From contig JAJDIC010000006.1 in NCBI GenBank assembly GCA_030266525.1, positions 1 to 49,369 of the forward strand: 49,369 nt of DNA. The letters are read 5' to 3'. Shown piece by piece: positions 32,447 to 49,369 of the stretch. Under the pieces are notes generated by a model. It saw only the letters and a list, made by a program, of their open reading frames with translations, was not told the origin of the DNA and ran no database searches. Position numbers and translations under genes: made by a program. This DNA comes from Desulfovibrio sp. OttesenSCG-928-G15 (GTDB lineage: Bacteria > Desulfobacterota > Desulfovibrionia > Desulfovibrionales > Desulfovibrionaceae). Each line of letters starts with the position of its first letter. The first letter of the stretch is position 1.

Positions 32447-32579
32447 GTCCCAACGCAAACGGTTGATGCCCCGTTCCCGGCGGGGAAAAAGCGGACAAAA
32501 TGCAAACGCCCGCGATAACCCGGCAAAAAGTGCCGGGTCCGCGAGGGCGCGGTCCATACGTTGCGCTTGAGCGCTCAAG

Positions 32580-32704
32580 AAACGCCGTTTTTTTCGTTTG
32601 GCAAGGCGCAAGCTCATTTCGGAGAGGAGCTGAACACTTCGGCCTCATTCTCTCTATTTCCAAGGAAAGGGGAGCTATAACTCTTCGCAAACAAGCGGGA
32701 GCCA
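32580..32704. repeat. Degenerate copy (C) of the long structured palindrome family
   Basis: The first 33 bases (an AAACGCCG start, T-tract, and GGCAAGGCGCAAG) match the plus-strand left arm and internal loop of copy A, 127 bases away in the same orientation. The rest lacks the conserved apex, though partial stems remain (AGCTC with GAGCT, TTTC with GAAA, GAGAG with CTCTC). It sits between panF and copy A. Confidence 0.55.
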
Positions 32705-32706
32705 AG

Positions 32707-32831
32707 AAAACGCCGGGTTTTTCCGTCTGGCAAGGCGCGCGTCCAGTAATTCAGGGGGCTGGACTCTTAAGTCCTGCCCCCTGAATTACTGGACGCAGCA
32801 ACGCAGTCCAGACGGAAAAAACCGGCGTTTT
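32707..32831 (-). repeat. Long structured palindrome, copy A
   Basis: A 125-base hairpin starting directly after the stop codon of the flgE paralog. The outer stem (32707-32730 with 32808-32831) pairs at 23 of 24 positions. An asymmetric internal loop of 9 and 12 bases follows. The inner stem (32740-32759 with 32776-32795) is a perfect 20 pairs. After a one-base mismatch comes the GGACT/AGTCC apical stem with a four-base loop. It may act as a terminator for two convergent genes, a mobile palindromic element or a structured RNA. Confidence 0.85.
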
Positions 32832-34346
32832 CTAGCGTTTGAGTTCAAGCGCCCGCTGTAACATGGTATCCGAGGTCGTGATGACCTTGCTGTTCATCTG
32901 GAAGCCGCGTTGGGTAACGACGAGCAGGCTGAATTCCCTGGCGTAGTCCACGTTGGACTGCTCAATGGCGTTTCCGGTTATGGTGCCGAAGTTTTCCGAG
33001 CCGGGTACACCTTCTTGCGCCACCCCGGAATCGGGCGTTGCGGAGTAGTGGTTGTTCCCCTCATGGCGCAGTCCGTCCTGGCTGACAAAGCGGTACGTGC
33101 TTACCCTGTACAGGTCCTGTTCCTGGCTGTTGGAGTAACTTGCCCGTACCAGACCGTCCGCTGTAACGTTGAGCGAGCGGATAAAGCCTTCGGCGTAGCC
33201 GTCTTGCGCACTGTATACCGAACCTGTTTCCGTGCCGTACTTGGTGGTCGCCTTTTCACCGAGAACGTGCGCCTGGTTTGTATTCAAAATAGCCTGGGGG
33301 TTGCCTGCGGCTTCTGCCGCATTGGCCAGCCCCGCGCCGCCGTTTGACGTGCCGGTTAACTGGATGCCTGTTTCAAAAGTAATGGTTTGCGCTTCCCCGC
33401 CTGTGGTCTTCACGGTAAACGCGGGCTTGCCGTTTGCCAGAGATGCCGGGGTCCAGCCGGCAAGGTTGGCGTTATTGCCGTCTGCCGGTGGGGAAAACGA
33501 GGTAAAACCGGATAGTTCTCCATTTGAGGCAAAGGTCAGCGTTCCGGCAAGGAGCAGGCCTTCTGCCTGGGTTCCCGCACGGACAGAGCCATCCTGTCCG
33601 GGGTCCAGGGTGATGATGTATTCCACGGCGCTTACGCCGCTGCTTTGTTCGGACACGCCATCATAATAGATGTTGCCGGAGCGAAGGTTGCCCCCTGAGT
33701 CGTAAAAGGAAAAACCTTCCTTGTGGCTGTATAAATTGCTGTTCAGCGGGGGCGAATAGGTCGCGTTCCACTGGGAAGCCATGCTGAAAAAGGGATTGTC
33801 CGTAGAATCGGAATTGTTTTTAATTCCACCTAGTTGCATGTAGGACGTAATGGTTCGTGTAGCCTTGGACGGCATGTACCCTTGCCCGCTTTCGTTCAGT
33901 TCCAGTGTAATGGGTTCCGGTGTGGCGTTTTCAACCCCGTTTGTTATTTTCCGGCCAAGCACGTTCCACCCGCTTGGGTCAAGCAGGTTGCCCTGGTTGT
34001 CAAAACGGAAGTTTCCGGCGCGGGTGTAGTGTGTTTTTCCGTTCTGGGTTACGCCGAAAAAGCCGATTCCGCTGATAGCAAGGTCAGTGGATTCGTTGCT
34101 GGTTTCAAAACCGCCCTGCGTGTGCAACACCCTGTGGGCGCCGGGCATAGAGCCTGCTCCCTTTTGGGAAATGTTGGTCATGGTGTTGGACGGAGAGGTC
34201 ACGTAAGAACTGACCAGATCCGAGTACTGCATGGAAATTTGCTTGAAGCCCACAGTATTCACGTTGGACAGGTTATGCGTGATAACGCTGAGTCCTTCGC
34301 TATGACTTTTCAGGCCTGTAGCGCCGATAAATAACGAACTTATCAT
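32832..34346 (-). CDS. flgE: Flagellar hook protein FlgE family, shorter paralog
   Basis: A 504-residue FlgE/FlgF/FlgG-type axial protein. It has the conserved N-terminal rod/hook motif (SVITHNLSNVNTVGFKQ), the STDLAISGIGFFGV and YTRAGNFRFD segments, a variable middle, and the C-terminal coiled segment (AIEQSNVDYAREFSLLVVTQRGFQMNSKVITTSDTML). The size suits a hook protein. The ATG has GAGGGTG just upstream. It stands alone on the minus strand, away from other flagellar genes, while a longer flgE lies 9 kb downstream. It may be an alternative hook or a rod/hook-cap relative. No sigma-54 or sigma-28 promoter was recognised in front of it. Confidence 0.85.
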   Translation of the reverse strand: MISSLFIGATGLKSHSEGLSVITHNLSNVNTVGFKQISMQYSDLVSSYVTSPSNTMTNISQKGAGSMPGAHRVLHTQGGFETSNESTDLAISGIGFFGVTQNGKTHYTRAGNFRFDNQGNLLDPSGWNVLGRKITNGVENATPEPITLELNESGQGYMPSKATRTITSYMQLGGIKNNSDSTDNPFFSMASQWNATYSPPLNSNLYSHKEGFSFYDSGGNLRSGNIYYDGVSEQSSGVSAVEYIITLDPGQDGSVRAGTQAEGLLLAGTLTFASNGELSGFTSFSPPADGNNANLAGWTPASLANGKPAFTVKTTGGEAQTITFETGIQLTGTSNGGAGLANAAEAAGNPQAILNTNQAHVLGEKATTKYGTETGSVYSAQDGYAEGFIRSLNVTADGLVRASYSNSQEQDLYRVSTYRFVSQDGLRHEGNNHYSATPDSGVAQEGVPGSENFGTITGNAIEQSNVDYAREFSLLVVTQRGFQMNSKVITTSDTMLQRALELKR

Positions 34347-34713
34347 AAATCACCCTCGTTTGCGGGGAAGTTCCGGCTTTTTCCTGTTCCTGCCGGGTTT
34401 TCTGTTCCCTTGCTATTTACGAACGCCATCTGCAGATGTATGCGGCAGTCTTTGCCGCAACATGCATGCGTACACCGCCTTTGCATGAGCTTGAAATATC
34501 GGGCGTATAGAATAAAACCCTTGTCTCATAAGCATTTCACGCAGTTTCACGGCAGTATTGACGGCGGGTAATTAATTCCCCGCACTGGGAAGTAAGCAGA
34601 AAGTGTGCCAGTATGCGCTGACTTTTGGGCGGGAGAAAAAAGAATCCCGGCCCTGGGCAAAAAGCCGTGGCCGGGATGAAGATTTTGCAGAAAAAACGGG
34701 TCAGACGGCGGCG
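34347..34713. other. Intergenic region upstream of the flgE paralog
   Basis: It contains the lipoprotein gene's terminator (34636-34677) and otherwise no supported gene. The part next to flgE is pyrimidine-rich on the plus strand. Searches by eye for a sigma-54 -24/-12 pair and for a sigma-28 box failed. Confidence 0.4.
34636..34677 (-). terminator. Intrinsic terminator of the first small lipoprotein gene
   Basis: On the minus strand ATCCCGGCC (34669-34677) pairs with GGCCGGGAT (34644-34652), enclosing a secondary GGC/GCC stem. The T-rich tract TCTTTTTT follows at once. Confidence 0.85.
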
Positions 34714-35175
34714 CTATTTTTTCCGCGCATGGTCCCAATCTTTGCCGACTATGACCACATAGCCGGTTTTTGAGGTAAGGGTCAGATCGCCGGAGTGGAT
34801 TTTTGTGCCTTTGGGGGCCTTGCATATTTTTGTGTTGGCCCTACCTATGCACTGCATGGTCTCGGGGTTGAAGTTGGGAATGACGGAACGCATTTCCTCT
34901 GGGGAAAGCTCAAAAAGGTGCAGGGCGGGCGTATCCGGCTGGCTGATTTTCCAGCCTTTGTCGTCCTTGCGCAAGAAGAAGGGCGCGGGCTTGTCCTTTT
35001 TGTTCTCGGGCTTGGGCAATATATCATAATCCCCGCTCAGTAAATCATTGCCGCTGTGATAGATTTTTTCCGGCTCTCCCATTTTGTCTATCATTTCCGC
35101 TGTCATGTTGGAGCAGCCTGCCGCAAGCGACAGCGTGCACAATATGCCGAGAAGGAGAACAAGGCGTTTTGTCAT
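34714..35175 (-). CDS. Small lipoprotein, paralog 1
   Basis: A 153-residue exported protein with a lipoprotein signal (LAAGC, Cys21). The mature part has AEMIDKMGEPEKIYHSGNDLLSGDY, KGWKISQPDTPALHLFELSPEEM, FNPETMQC and a C-terminal LTLTSKTGYVVIV. All of these recur in the protein encoded at 38296-38766, so the two are paralogs. The start at 35175 has AAAGGA nine bases upstream; the longer open frame is unsupported. A promoter lies at 35243-35271. The family is unknown to me. Confidence 0.75.
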   Translation of the reverse strand: MTKRLVLLLGILCTLSLAAGCSNMTAEMIDKMGEPEKIYHSGNDLLSGDYDILPKPENKKDKPAPFFLRKDDKGWKISQPDTPALHLFELSPEEMRSVIPNFNPETMQCIGRANTKICKAPKGTKIHSGDLTLTSKTGYVVIVGKDWDHARKK

Positions 35176-35242
35176 TTTGAGTGGTCCTTTACCGCAACAG
35201 GCGGTGGCTAAAAGTAAGGAAAACAACTGTACGTGAAGATTT

Positions 35243-35271
35243 TTTATACCTGCGCCGGCTGTATCGCGCAA
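35243..35271 (-). promoter_or_regulatory. Candidate sigma-70 promoter of lipoprotein paralog 1
   Basis: On the minus strand TTGCGC and TATAAA are spaced by 17 bases. It lies about 70 bases before the lipoprotein start, inside the 308-base divergent region that otherwise holds no gene. Confidence 0.5.
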
Positions 35272-35483
35272 GATATTTGCGGCATTCGTGGCGCTGGTTG
35301 GGGGCTTGGCACGCTGGCGGGGCTTTGGCGAACTGGCGGGAGCCGACCCCGCGAGCGGGCGGGACTTTGGCTGATCGAAAAAAAAGCGGGGCCAGTCTTG
35401 CGAATATCCAGGGGATAGTGCTAGAAGTCGAGGGCGGTGAAAAAAGCCGCGTGTTTGTAATATCGGTTTTTCGTGGAGAATAT

Positions 35484-36842
35484 ATGATTCAGTTGTTTTT
35501 ACTGTTTTGTGGCACCCGGCTGGTACGCAAGTATTGGTGGGTGCTTTTCGCATTTGGCTTTTTCTGGCTGTGCGTAGGGCTTTTTGTCATGAACGACGCG
35601 GTATTCAGCGCACACAGAATTCCGGTGGACTATTTTGCCATTCCCCTGTGCTTTGACGGCATATGGGCGCTGGGCACGGCCTTTTCAAAGGAGGGCACCA
35701 CCAGGAAGCTGCGTCTTTCACGGGCTGGCATCATGCTTGGCGTGGCCCTGCTTATTTTGTTTGCTCCGCGTTATCATGGCGTGATCATAGGTATTATTAT
35801 CGGCACCTTTATTGTTGCCGATGCCTGTTTCCGAATTGCCAGCGCCTATGTGGTGCGCTTCAAGCGGTGGCAGTTTTCTCTGGCTTTTGGCGTGTTCGAG
35901 TTTTTGTGCGGCCTGTGGTCGCTGGTGCCCTGGCCCACGTATTACGCTGGTGCTGTGGGGCACGACGTGGGCGTACTGGTCATGCTTGGCGCAATGTCGG
36001 TGTGCGGCCTGTCCCTGCGCATTCGCAGTCTGCCTTCGCAGGTATCCATCTGCACCGTATTCAGCAAGGGCTGGCCGGAGAATTATAAGGTGCATGAAGA
36101 ACGCCGCGCCCACCCGCGTGAAAACGGGGAAGAGGTCATCGTGCACGTATGGACGCCCACGGAAGAACTGGCCCCGCTCAGCGTGGGCCGCTATGTGGCC
36201 GCCACGAACAAGTCGGGTGTAATTTCCACAGGCCATGCGGCCATGGAAATCAAGCCCGATGTGTACATCAGTTTTTACCCGGCTGTGGAAATTGACCGGG
36301 ACAATATTGAGTTCATGCAGTCCCTGAACGCTTCGGACAAAAATAACGTGCAAGGCCTTTTTCAGCCCAGCTATGAGGTGGAGAGCGCGGACTGGTGCCC
36401 CTCTACCATGCAGGTGCGCATTCGCGGGCTGAACACGCGCAACATGCGCCAATTCTGGAATGCCTACCGGGAAGATATTACCTACAACCTGACCAGCCGC
36501 AACTGCGCAAGCTCTGTGGCCAAAGCGCTTGATGCGGGCCTGGAAGGCCTTTTCAGCAAGCAGATTCGCTCGTCCTTTTTCTTCCTTCCCCATCTGTTTT
36601 TCACTCCGGAAATGTGGGTGGCGGGTTTTATGCGCCAGCGGGCGGAAGCCATGGCCTGGACGCCGGGAATTCTGCTTGATTACGTGAGGGCGCTTTCGTA
36701 CATCATGTCGCTGCCGGGCAAGTGGAACCCCGTTGCCGAAGGCAAGAAGAAAAATGTAGCGCCCGGCGACAGCCCCGCTGCTGCAAGCTCTTTTGAAAAC
36801 AAGGCGCACGACGGCGCCGACACATCCCAACCTCAACAGTAA
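35484..36842 (+). CDS. HdeD-like membrane domain fused to a papain-like (NlpC/LRAT-type) domain
   Basis: A 452-residue protein with two halves. Residues 1-185 form about six membrane helices resembling HdeD/DUF308 proteins. Residues 200-410 resemble a permuted papain-like hydrolase, with His251 in STGHAAMEI, a YISFYP strand and Cys341 in SRNCASSVAKALDAG as the likely catalytic pair. The tail is low in complexity. Such a layout suggests a membrane-tethered amidase, peptidase or acyltransferase; the side of the membrane and the substrate are unknown. ATG 35484 has GGAG at five bases; the upstream open frame lacks support. The MFS gene starts 19 bases after its stop, so they likely form one operon. 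Confidence 0.7.
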   Translation: MIQLFLLFCGTRLVRKYWWVLFAFGFFWLCVGLFVMNDAVFSAHRIPVDYFAIPLCFDGIWALGTAFSKEGTTRKLRLSRAGIMLGVALLILFAPRYHGVIIGIIIGTFIVADACFRIASAYVVRFKRWQFSLAFGVFEFLCGLWSLVPWPTYYAGAVGHDVGVLVMLGAMSVCGLSLRIRSLPSQVSICTVFSKGWPENYKVHEERRAHPRENGEEVIVHVWTPTEELAPLSVGRYVAATNKSGVISTGHAAMEIKPDVYISFYPAVEIDRDNIEFMQSLNASDKNNVQGLFQPSYEVESADWCPSTMQVRIRGLNTRNMRQFWNAYREDITYNLTSRNCASSVAKALDAGLEGLFSKQIRSSFFFLPHLFFTPEMWVAGFMRQRAEAMAWTPGILLDYVRALSYIMSLPGKWNPVAEGKKKNVAPGDSPAAASSFENKAHDGADTSQPQQ

Positions 36843-36861
36843 GCAACGTGCAGGTATGATA

Positions 36862-38022
36862 ATGGATCAGGCGGAACAAAATCCCCATGTAAAAATATTG
36901 GCCTGCGGGGCGGTTATCGGTACTGCCGCGGTTTTCGGCCTGACCTATAGCCTGACCGCGGCGCTTATCGCCCTGGATCTTGCGGAAATTGGCGTCAGCG
37001 AAGGGCTGATAGGCGCAAACGCCGCCATGCACGCGGTGGGCGTTTTGATAATGGCCTTTGTGCTGCCGCGCATCACAGCTGCGCTTGGCATGCGCCGGGC
37101 AATGCTGGTGGCGCTGGCTTCCGCCGCCGTGTTCATGCCGCTTTTTCCGGCCATCATGCCTTCCCTGTTCTGGCTGTTCCCCTTGCGGGTGTTGCTGGGC
37201 TGTGCTTCGGAAGTGCTGTTCGTGCTGTCTGAAACCTGGCTCAATGCCTTGAGCGACGAAAAAACCCGCGCCCGGATGATGGCTGTATATACGGCGGCCA
37301 TGTCACTCGGCTTTGCGCTCGGGCCGCTTATTCTCATGGTCGCCGGAACAGAGGGCTACACCCCCTATCTGGTGGGCAGCGCCCTGGCCCTGCTCGCGGC
37401 GGTGTTTGTATTGTACCGGGGCCTGACCGAGCCGGAAATTGAAAAGCCGGAGCATTCCAATCCCCTGGTATACATGCGCCTCGCACCGCTGGCCCTGGCT
37501 GCCACCATGCTGAACGCGGCTATTGAAAGTTCCGGCCTGACCTTTTTGCACCTCTATGCCTTGTCGCTAGGCTGGCAGGAGGTACAGGCTACCCAGCTTA
37601 TGCCCTGCGTAATGATTGGAGCAATTTTACTGCAACTTCCGCTCGGCTGGCTCGGCGACAAGGTTGATCGGCAAAAGCTGGTTCTGGTGCTGGCAGCCAT
37701 TGCGGCAGTCAGCTGCCTGTTCTGGCCCTGGGCCATGGAGCACGAAACAACCACCTTCGCCCTGCTGTTTGTATGGGGCGGCGTGTTTGTGGGTATATAC
37801 ACCATCATGCTGGCCATAGTAGGCAGCCGCTTCAAGGGCAGTGAGCTGATAGGCATTTACGCCTCCATGGGGCTTTTCTGGGGTGCCGGTGCGCTCATTG
37901 GCCCGCTGCTGGCAGGCATAGCCATGGAAGTAGCCAAACACGGCTTCATAGCGTTTGTTTTCGCCGCCTGCGCAGGTTTTTTCGCTATGGCGATGTACCT
38001 GAGAGGAAAAAACCTGACATAG
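36862..38022 (+). CDS. Major facilitator superfamily transporter
   Basis: A 386-residue transporter with about 12 membrane helices. The N-half has the loop GMRRAMLVALASAAVF and the motif SEVLFVLSETWLNAL; the C-half has GWLGDKVDRQKLVLVLA, the expected MFS loop motif. It resembles the YcaD/YfcJ type of efflux or sugar-related carriers. Substrate is unknown. ATG 36862 is preferred because CAGG lies seven bases upstream; an ATG at 36856 is too close to it. It follows the papain-like membrane protein gene directly. Confidence 0.88.
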   Translation: MDQAEQNPHVKILACGAVIGTAAVFGLTYSLTAALIALDLAEIGVSEGLIGANAAMHAVGVLIMAFVLPRITAALGMRRAMLVALASAAVFMPLFPAIMPSLFWLFPLRVLLGCASEVLFVLSETWLNALSDEKTRARMMAVYTAAMSLGFALGPLILMVAGTEGYTPYLVGSALALLAAVFVLYRGLTEPEIEKPEHSNPLVYMRLAPLALAATMLNAAIESSGLTFLHLYALSLGWQEVQATQLMPCVMIGAILLQLPLGWLGDKVDRQKLVLVLAAIAAVSCLFWPWAMEHETTTFALLFVWGGVFVGIYTIMLAIVGSRFKGSELIGIYASMGLFWGAGALIGPLLAGIAMEVAKHGFIAFVFAACAGFFAMAMYLRGKNLT

Positions 38023-38103
38023 GAAAACGCCGCTTTTTCCATAGGGCCGCGTAGCTGCACCGTTTGGGAAGCGGGGCAGGACTGAAGCCCCTCGGGATAT
38101 CCC
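38023..38103 (+). repeat. Half copy (D) of the long structured palindrome family
   Basis: Starting right after the MFS stop codon, the plus strand carries AAAACGCCG, a T-tract, the internal-loop-like GTAGCTGCACC and the apex GGGGCAGGACTGAAG. This aligns without gaps to the minus strand of copy B at about 42 of 54 positions. The second half of the palindrome is missing and is replaced by a short CCCC closing arm. Confidence 0.7.
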
Positions 38104-38119
38104 ACCCTCTCTCCAACAC

Positions 38120-38160
38120 AAGGCCCCTGTAACGCAAAGCGTTACAGGGGCCTTGCCTTT
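38120..38160 (+). terminator. Strong hairpin downstream of the MFS gene
   Basis: A perfect 16-base stem (38120-38135 with 38139-38154) has an AAA loop, followed by GCCTTTC. The T-tract is short, so termination is likely but not certain. Confidence 0.65.
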
Positions 38161-38184
38161 CAAATCCGTCACAAAGAGGTAAGA

Positions 38185-38301
38185 CGTTGAGTTTTTCCGC
38201 AGGGCGAGGCGCAAGCCATTTGTCAGAGGGGGCCGGACTCTTCAGTCCTGCCCCCTCTGACAAATGGTGCGGCAACGAAGCCCTGCGGAAAAAAATCAAC
38301 G
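38185..38301 (-). repeat. Long structured palindrome, copy B
   Basis: The outer stem (38185-38205 with 38280-38301) pairs almost completely and includes the stop codon of lipoprotein paralog 2. The inner stem (38216-38233 with 38250-38267) is a perfect 18 pairs. The apex GGACT/AGTCC, the flanking GGGGGC/GCCCCC pairs and the internal loop sequences match copy A, while most other stem bases differ on both arms together. Confidence 0.85.
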
Positions 38302-38766
38302 TTTGACCGCGTCGCGCCAGGAATCGGGCTTCATGATAACTATATGCCCGGTTTGGGAGGTGACGGTAAGCTTGCCCAGAGTGAGCTTTTTACCTTTGGG
38401 CAGGGTGCAGAACATGCCGAAATATTTTTCATCGGCGCACTGCATGGTTTTGGGGTCATAGCCCTTAATCATGTCAGCAGCCTGGTCCGGCGGTACTTCA
38501 AACATGGTGAAAGCCCTGGTTCCGGAGTGCATTTTCCAGCCTTTTTCCACTTTCTCCATGCGGATATCCGCGTCTTTGGAGTCGTTTTTATCGCCCGGCC
38601 CGGCAAGGGTCTGGTAGGCGCCGCTCAATAGATCCGTGCCGCTGACGTACAGGTTTTCCGGTTCGGCAACCGTGTCAATCATTTCAGCCACATCAAGGCT
38701 CTTGCAAGCGGGCATGGTCGCAAAGACCAGCAGGGCGGCGAACAGGCAAAAGACATTTTTCTTCAT
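38296..38766 (-). CDS. Small lipoprotein, paralog 2
   Basis: A 156-residue exported protein, signal ending at Cys21 (TMPAC, a slightly unusual lipobox). It shares with the protein encoded at 34714-35175 the segments AEMID..EPE.LY.SG.DLLSG.Y, KGWK, a phenylalanine-rich middle, PKTMQC and LTVTSQTGHIVIM. ATG 38766 has GGAA close upstream. The stop codon lies inside the outer arm of structured palindrome B. The function is unknown; duplication within 4 kb suggests a lineage-specific family. Confidence 0.75.
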   Translation of the reverse strand: MKKNVFCLFAALLVFATMPACKSLDVAEMIDTVAEPENLYVSGTDLLSGAYQTLAGPGDKNDSKDADIRMEKVEKGWKMHSGTRAFTMFEVPPDQAADMIKGYDPKTMQCADEKYFGMFCTLPKGKKLTLGKLTVTSQTGHIVIMKPDSWRDAVKR

Positions 38767-49010: not shown

Positions 49011-49369
49011 AAGGCGGGCCGGGCTGTCGTCGCGCGCGGAAGCAATTCCTGCGCGGGGAGGAAAGTCCGGGCTCCGAAGGGCAGGACGCTGGGTAACGCC
49101 CAGGGGGCGAAATCCCCGGAAAGTGCCACAGAAAACAAACCGCCCCGTTTACGGGGTAAGGGTGAAACGGTGGGGTAAGAGCCCACCAGTTGCCGTGGCG
49201 ACGCGGCAAGCTAGGTAAACCCCGTCCGGAGCAAGACCAAATAGGGAAGCGCTGAACCGGCCCGGTGAGCTTCCGGGTAGGTTGCTTGAGGCCGCAAGTA
49301 ATTGCGGTCCTAGAGGAATGACAGCCACCGCCTCGTATGTTGGCGGAGACAGAACCCGGCTTACAGGCC
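49011..49369 (+). ncRNA. rnpB: RNase P RNA, bacterial class A (3' end cut by the window)
   Basis: The catalytic RNA that trims the 5' leader of tRNA precursors. The conserved P4 5' strand GAGGAAAGTCCGGGCTCC starts near 49058 and is followed by the GGCAGG...GGTAACGCC region. The J11/12-type AGAGGAATGACAGCC block and the P4 3' strand with AGAACCCGGCTTA (49351-49363) follow. The last bases, ACAGGCC, begin the P1 3' strand and would pair with GGGCC near 49016, so only the end of P1 is missing. The 205 bases upstream hold no gene, only small hairpins; a weak TTGGAT/TAAAAA pair at 48974-49000 may be its promoter. Confidence 0.97.

Follow-up and report, generated by a model that had tools for sequence, protein, structure and literature searches.

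The window analysed here (the whole 49,369-nucleotide stretch from Desulfovibrio sp. OttesenSCG-928-G15) carries two long imperfect palindromes, copies A and B, each of which lies between convergent genes and touches the stop codon of a minus-strand gene (Table 1). A first-pass annotation of the window had proposed both placements, together with an architecture of nested stems, internal loops and apex common to the two copies. Both palindromes are indeed present and share one fold on the family model described below, and the convergent neighbours and the stop codon contacts are borne out for each. The pattern GGACTCTTNAGTCCTGCCCCC, with up to three mismatches permitted, occurs at two sites in the window and at none in 100 shuffles. 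Predicted RNA folds of the plus strand reach -99.6 kcal/mol (z -15.4) for A and -86.5 kcal/mol (z -12.5) for B, with 0 of 200 shuffles equally stable. When A and B are compared over 39 model pairs, 20 are identical, 14 differ at both positions and still pair in each copy, one is changed on a single side and four are gapped; 25 of the 31 inner unpaired columns are identical. By reading, the termini of A show GCGTTTTC on either strand, and stem II has a long A/T run that, whichever strand is taken, reads as an A-tract on its 3′ side.

Table 1. Palindromes A and B and adjoining features of the window. Both copies are among the rows of the R1 and R3 alignments
Feature	Position	Strand	Detail
Copy A, whole imperfect palindrome	32705-32833	+	R1 match 32706-32832, 130.5 bits; R3 89.3 bits
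A outer arms (stems I and II)	32705-32730 / 32808-32833	+	26 nt, 96%
A left internal loop GGCAAGGCGCGCG	32729-32741	+	Conserved in alignments A1 and A3
A inner stem III and apex	32739-32796; arms 32739-32765 / 32770-32796	+	27 nt, 96%
A right internal loop GCAACGCAGTCC	32798-32809	+	Conserved in alignments A1 and A3
CTAG, YTAR-type site at right end of A	32832-32835	.	Contains the FlgE-like stop (32832-32834; TAG on minus strand)
FlgE-like flagellar hook gene	32832-34346	-	Pfam FlgE_D2, Flg_bbr_C; stop codon at right end of A
Copy B, whole imperfect palindrome	38180-38306	+	R1 118.3 bits; R3 91.7 bits at 38180-38305
B outer arms (stem II)	38192-38205 / 38280-38293	+	14 nt, 100%; longer with mismatches permitted
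B left internal loop GGCGAGGCGCAAG	38203-38215	+	Conserved
B inner stem III and apex	38216-38267; arms 38216-38239 / 38244-38267	+	24 nt, 96%
B right internal loop GCAACGAAGCCC	38272-38283	+	Conserved
Small gene, lipoprotein-like by eye	38296-38766	-	Stop (38296-38298) and last codons within right arm of B

A and B are members of a large dispersed hairpin family. A protein scan with the FlgE-like product returned eight loci, the starting point for finding the genomes of relatives, and the DNA of A gave 20 matches (E<=0.0144) in G006, the genome of one of these loci. Among 15 genomes of the genus of G006, four (G006, G007, G008 and G016) have 20-41 matches at E<=0.1, with no more than 40 candidates per genome scored, and six more have one or two weak matches each. 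A covariance model built from 34 copies (R1) matched A and B over 127 nucleotides (nt) each. With few candidates per genome scored, it also matched 55 of 288 genomes at the family level (E<=1e-3) and 77 of 348 at the order level (E<=1e-5), so that the search of relatives suggested by the first-pass annotation recovers many further copies of the family it had proposed, in which the core is conserved and the arms covary. Searches in depth with R1 gave 140 matches, at no fewer than 113 distinct places, in G114 (one contig, 3,464,070 bases), 54 in G065, 39 in G286, 24 in G062, 14 in G138 and 9 in G139; these match counts may include the reverse-strand score of the same copy, which for the true copies in the window is 77 and 58 bits. 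Several draft contigs of G016 and G008, C20 and C82 respectively being examples, terminate within copies of the element, and copy numbers in drafts are therefore underestimates.

Those of the weaker R1 matches that were read belong to the same family. They comprise 27 copies within the family (15 genomes) and 20 from 12 genomes outside it, all with the same loops on other stems, and for these 47 copies the shared loops dispel the suspicion that matches of 50-70 bits are unrelated hairpins. A second model of 38 rows, made without Gammaproteobacteria (R2), matched 77 of 369 genomes (E<=1e-5) in the class of G349, the Sulfuritalea genome of locus L008; this class we take to be Gammaproteobacteria in GTDB. 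Twenty-three further copies, 22 from that class and one (L367) from G136 of the Desulfovibrio family, have the same layout, and the loops CAAGG (left) and ACGC (right) are kept across Desulfovibrionales and Gammaproteobacteria. A third model (R3, 30 rows) combined gammaproteobacterial copies with those from Desulfovibrionales and the window, and gave no reverse-strand match in the window. Some insertions occupy identical sites in different species (G042, G040 and G045; G044 and G047). A scan of viral contigs for the apex pattern returned none, and the L358 element likewise had no match among phage and plasmid records. Clustered arrangements include a tandem array in L241 (G070), at about 1050-1650 in reverse-strand numbering, with at least four copies in units of about 152 nt, and three copies in L392 (1501-1623, 1754-1876 and 2306-2428) in an rRNA operon spacer, around two tRNA genes and in the rRNA direction.

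Several relatives retain ends that point to how the hairpin moved. In G016 the element extends to the left of the palindrome by GGAAGCACTGATTAAATGGATTTC and terminates on the right in AATCAGCGTTTCC, the left end having an additional outer repeat; the terminal inverted repeats of relatives are GGAARCRCTGATTAA. Both ends could be located in 35 of 87 copies, 24 of which have identical flanking 4-mers, and 44 of 80 copies have YTAR as their right 4-mer, against a background of 0.26%; the YTAR motif contains TAA/TAG. In an enlarged set with both ends, flanks are identical in 44 of 85 copies. Set against shuffled flanks, the excess is seen in G016 (14 of 18 versus 4.4 expected), G008 (7 of 11 versus 1.3), G114 (15 of 39 versus 3.7) and G065 (4 of 10 versus 1.1), with P<0.0005 for each of the first three and P 0.011 for G065 in 2000 shuffles; G006, G007 and G139 (4, 1 and 2 copies) were uninformative. 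The end pattern TAAGGAARCRCTGATTAA is present in 13 of the 15 genomes of the genus, also on other short elements, and it flanks an IS5 transposase gene that is broken (L163; NCBIfam transpos_IS5_4, 6e-47). YTAR lies beside 15 of 23 end-like sites around IS5-transposase loci, duplicate loci being counted once.

By these IS5-type ends and target duplications, the hairpin in the recently active lineages is an IS5-type miniature inverted-repeat transposable element (MITE) with YTAR duplication, while the ends of other lineages differ. IS5-family MITEs are likewise short and without a gene, and have terminal inverted repeats and, as in these relatives, the YTAR duplication; here, by contrast, the structured core also exists without such ends, and the left end has its extra outer repeat. 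The first-pass annotation had named a known transposon end as an outcome that would overturn its reading. Such ends, with duplications, are present in recent relatives, but those of A and B are worn. Other short elements share the ends. L144, L147, L148 and L160 are MITE-like elements of about 155 bp with the same IS5-type ends (one of them worn in L160) around a different palindrome of the GCTACGGCTCAGAATGAC type, and L150, L157, L159 and L146 have the same kind of end and carry GGGGC-NNN-GCCCC and related GC-rich hairpins. R3 matched none of L144-L151 and L157-L160 or the IS5 remnant L163, which have these ends but lack the core; its sole additional strong match was L153, which has it.

The right end of the element sits on stop codons, and the left end seldom does. 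Distances to stop codons rest on gene calls from our own simple codon-bias caller, used unrefined. None of 162 copies lies inside a called gene, and one (L240) was flagged as inside in a second set of 29. Neighbouring genes are tandem for 93 of the 162, convergent for 40 and divergent for 10, with 19 lacking a neighbour on one side, so that convergent placement, which holds for A and B, applies to only 40 of the 143 copies with known neighbours. A palindrome edge falls between -15 and +6 nt from a stop codon at the right in 60 of the 162 and at the left in 4. Many copies have about 28 nt of extra sequence on the left, which makes copies with both transposon ends the fairer test: among 85 such copies, contact is at the right only in 23, at the left only in 4, at both in 3 and at neither in 55 (P 3e-4), and contact of any kind (30 of 85) compares with 141 of 1435 YTAR sites outside genes. 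The same direction was found for copies without IS5-type ends (16 right and 1 left of 29; the left one, L338, has a stop at each side, and L303 and L304 also belong to the set of 162), for a gammaproteobacterial sample (12 right and 0 left of 19) and for 22 copies comprising 20 from outside the family and two from G136 (13 right, 0 left). For copies that lie between tandem genes but away from stop codons no direction is evident, 25 facing the upstream gene with the right end and 32 with the left.

The share of copies at stop codons, after removal of those that contain N, have an odd length or lack a neighbour, is 4 of 23 in G016 (95.4% identity to consensus), 17 of 51 in G114 (94.6%) and 5 of 11 in G065 (95.5%), compared with 6 of 10 in G008 (86.9%), 5 of 10 in G006 (81.7%) and 14 of 22 in G007 (84.9%). 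Across these six genomes the larger share in older families suggests a build-up at stop codons that would reflect retention more than a preference at insertion.

Covariation of the arms is real. Double-change cells number 142 among 34 copies, compared with 39 in shuffles, and 244 among 38 deep sequences, compared with 77, where 22 of 24 pairs are affected; the covariation test advised at the outset thus gave values above all 500 shuffles. Within genomes single changes prevail: there are 365, alongside 77 Watson-Crick doubles and 17 other doubles, about 39 doubles being expected if the two sides were independent. Single changes to G.T (118) and to A.C (93) are near equal, which suggests that selection on either RNA strand has little part in the decay of young copies; RNA selection argued from an excess of G.U within genomes is unsupported overall, G007 alone standing at 19:5 and G114 at 42:42. 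Between lineages, by comparison, the excess of G.T is clear: the 38 deep sequences have 83 G.T versus 32 A.C, with more G.T in 26 rows and fewer in 2. The plus strand folds better in 37 of these 38 sequences, by a mean of 11.8 kcal/mol and with A as the exception, and in 22 of 23 further copies. At copies with a right-end stop codon, the gene that abuts them has the plus strand as its template.

The first-pass annotation had also raised the copying of one arm from the other, and two observations lend this some support. In G006, three of 20 copies (L041, L044 and L054) have the core hairpin inverted relative to the flanking loops, a count that leaves out a truncated copy in G008 and two copies in G286, all with poor matches to the loop patterns; inverted cores of this sort have been described as by-products when replication switches template from one arm to the other (PMC8604942, PMC8794818). 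By reading, a 3-nt block of the inner stem in G008 is mismatched in 14 of 19 copies, where GAT or AAT faces GGA, and matched by TCC in L127, L129 and L130. We conclude that the arms are kept complementary in spreading lineages by some mixture of arm copying and structural selection.

The layout is reminiscent of the enterobacterial repetitive intergenic consensus (ERIC), also known as intergenic repeat unit (IRU) or RU-1. ERIC repeats are widely used in strain typing; to our knowledge, their origin, mover and role are unsettled. Like this family, they are imperfect palindromes of about 127 bp, intergenic and multicopy, with an AAGGCG-type left loop, an AACGC right loop and a GGAG-stem-GTGAC-type apex. 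Relatives of A and B are, as ERIC is, extragenic and mobile with TA at the target, although a duplicated target is not visible for A and B themselves. There are also differences: the family belongs to another phylum, its outer and inner arms are different, the ERIC core is absent, and some lineages, unlike ERIC, have clear IS5-type ends with a 4-bp YTAR duplication. ERIC itself is on record for Enterobacteriaceae and Vibrionaceae (PMC10969869).

Six ERIC loci, located with the ERIC core, were used for comparison; none is among the 30 rows of R3, and two (L393 and L399) are near-copies of each other. R3 matched all six in the right place and on the plus strand (E 6e-13, 9e-7, 4e-6, 5e-6, 4e-5 and 1.6e-4), the next other match having E 0.69. 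Scoring restricted to conserved columns agrees when alignment A4 is used without L385 and L390, two relatives with an ATACCC-like start and a GGTAT end, the first of which also has an ERIC-like outer stem: for each of the six ERIC loci, only 0-3 of 100 structure-kept randomised controls reach the observed value. In four annotated ERIC loci a stop codon lies beside the right end in two (cusC in L393, at 7 nt, and an ABC transporter gene in L396, at 1 nt) and no stop codon lies there in the other two. A and B are thus probable members of an ERIC-type superfamily, linked to ERIC through gammaproteobacterial intermediates, and the earlier statement that no named element has these features is probably wrong, given the likeness of layout, loops and apex to ERIC/IRU and the six R3 matches.

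Other catalogued elements fit less well. Repetitive extragenic palindromes (REPs) and the bacterial interspersed mosaic elements (BIMEs) associated with them, with which a comparison had been advised, are likewise multicopy and extragenic, but REPs measure 20-40 bp (PMC3733652), a size from which A and B depart, the family element having about 125 nt and three nested stems. A comparison with Rfam, also advised, found no family reaching threshold over the element; there were only sub-threshold matches, mostly to microRNA-like models.

We consider it probable, though by no means assured, that A and B descend from long-past insertions of an ERIC/IRU-type mobile hairpin whose stop-tagging copies build up and whose arms are kept complementary. 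The element would be non-autonomous and about 125 nt long; its three stems are nested, its internal loops conserved, and a small hairpin forms the apex. A borrowed DDE transposase spreads its copies, as the relatives show, the recently active form in Desulfovibrionales having IS5-type ends and the 4-bp YTAR duplication. Copies whose right end lies on a stop codon, with the gene transcribed into that end, would then accumulate, and the hairpin would form the start of the gene's 3′ untranslated RNA, where it would probably alter decay or processing. The model here is the Yersinia ERIC, for which a direction-dependent effect on the upstream mRNA through an RNase E site has been reported (PMC2229807, PMC10969869); for the present family we infer a role at mRNA 3′ ends. 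Compensatory change and template-switch copying would keep the arms complementary, mainly in spreading lineages, while single inserted copies would decay almost neutrally.

A number of results weigh against this reading. On the side of the mover, the longer piece of the transposase found no match in 10 of 12 genomes searched, including G114, G065, G016, G007 and G008, the other two giving one fragment (G006) and 19 matches (G017). A and B have worn terminal ends and no clear target duplication: the left counterpart of the CTAG at A is CAAG (32703-32706), equal in three of four letters, and no duplication is recognisable at the flanks of B. On the side of ERIC, the rows of R3 may include ERIC-like copies, and R2, without Gammaproteobacteria, matched one of the six ERIC loci. 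R1 gave L393 9.8 bits (E 0.077), below the 15.6 bits of an unrelated place in the same stretch, and sequence-only profiles matched 0 of 6. With all rows of A4, the conserved-column controls reaching the ERIC value numbered 0, 0, 1, 26, 14 and 6 of 100, three of the six loci beating 95 of 100 controls, and with Desulfovibrionales alone (A3) two of six beat all 100; family members, some of which are rows of A3, stood out in 6 of 6 cases in all three settings. A blastn search of E. coli genomes with L385, the ERIC-like relative, found nothing, and by reading the central ERIC core used for PCR (polymerase chain reaction) primers is absent from A and B, for which reasons we speak of 'ERIC-type' and not of an ERIC copy. 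As to function, the mRNA of the abutting gene carries the minus strand, the weaker folder in 37 of the 38 deep sequences, and the age trend in stop codon share comes from six genomes only, G065 lying off it. Copies at stop codons (51) and others (73) do not differ in conservation (P 0.52); the idea that the former are better conserved found no support, so that the data give no sign of present selection on them.

The sequence-only and conserved-column results, in weakening the direct link to ERIC, lower our confidence in an ERIC-type origin with a role at gene ends and raise the standing of a purely selfish IS5-type MITE without host role, whose arms would be mended by template switching at replication, a process sufficient in itself to maintain their complementarity, and for which gene ends would be the least harmful sites. 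We hold this to be possible, if clearly the less probable account. It is favoured by the target duplications and IS5 ends, by the three inverted cores among 20 in G006 (a template-switch-type by-product; PMC8604942, PMC8794818), by the preponderance of single over Watson-Crick double changes within genomes (365 versus 77) with the parity of G.T and A.C in G114, and by the finding that copies at stop codons are conserved no better than those elsewhere. What it leaves unexplained is the contact of stop codons with the right and seldom the left end, the conservation of the loops across Desulfovibrionales and Gammaproteobacteria, and the strand bias.

The strand bias finds a precedent in another known system. 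Integron attC sites follow stop codons in one direction, and it is their bottom strand that folds. A one-strand DNA fold recognised by a recombinase or nuclease in the manner of attC would account for the greater stability of the plus strand (37 of 38 and 22 of 23) and for the fixed direction at stop codons, where the abutting gene has plus as its template. It is nevertheless improbable: by reading of alignment A3 the ends vary from copy to copy and share no end boxes, the attC core boxes included; the copies do not lie in cassette arrays and most of those read are single (exceptions being the L241 array and the neighbouring copies in L391 and L392); and insertion duplicates the target, recent copies having transposase-type duplications. 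Least credible of all are ordinary bidirectional terminators, a reading favoured by the convergent genes around A and B, their long stems and the GCGTTTTC ends of A on both strands and which we reject, as 93 of 143 copies lie between tandem genes and 40 between convergent ones, stem II presents its A/T run as an A-tract 3′ on both strands, the family is dispersed and multicopy, and a terminator scan leaves A without a site and gives B a single weak one, of 5 pairs, at its right end (minus strand).

A broader proposal can be set beside the ERIC-type origin that we prefer. ERIC may be no more than the enterobacterial branch of a class, present in Gammaproteobacteria and Desulfovibrionales, that tags gene 3′ ends in one direction. 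Such a class would be kept as a structure of one strand, the template of the tagged gene, in which the loops stay the same from phylum to phylum while the stems may vary, and would be moved by whatever transposase ends it acquires, here of the IS5 type; strand-specific folding would be selected, and a conserved host protein would recognise it in single-stranded DNA or antisense RNA. We regard this as doubtful and offer it as speculation. If the link itself is true, ERIC is part of a much wider class, one branch of which reveals its movement through IS5-type ends and YTAR duplication. Whatever the naming, the stop codon contact of the right end and the folding bias of one strand are two sharp facts, and more than 100 copies offer a means to separate compensatory selection from template-switch arm copying. 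We found no published account of this family or of ERIC in Desulfovibrio, though a broader distribution and the rule of direction may in part be known already; the findings are probable ERIC-type hairpins in Desulfovibrionales, a mover for one branch, a strong preference of one end for stop codons and the strand bias.

Minor features of the window complete the description. Worn pieces resembling the left arms of the family precede A (32578-32612) and B (38023-38146), the latter an R1 match on the minus strand (E 0.0064). A perfect 17-bp hairpin, CAAGGCCCCTGTAACGC/GCGTTACAGGGGCCTTG, lies at 38119-38155 between a major facilitator superfamily (MFS) gene and B; it was not flagged by the terminator scan and is perhaps the actual terminator there. 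The small gene whose stop lies in B has a relative at 34714-35553, the two products being 39% identical over 157 columns and lipoprotein-like by eye, with no match for either in a Pfam search. Finally, a class A RNase P RNA (303 bits) occupies 49011-49369 and runs past the end of the window.

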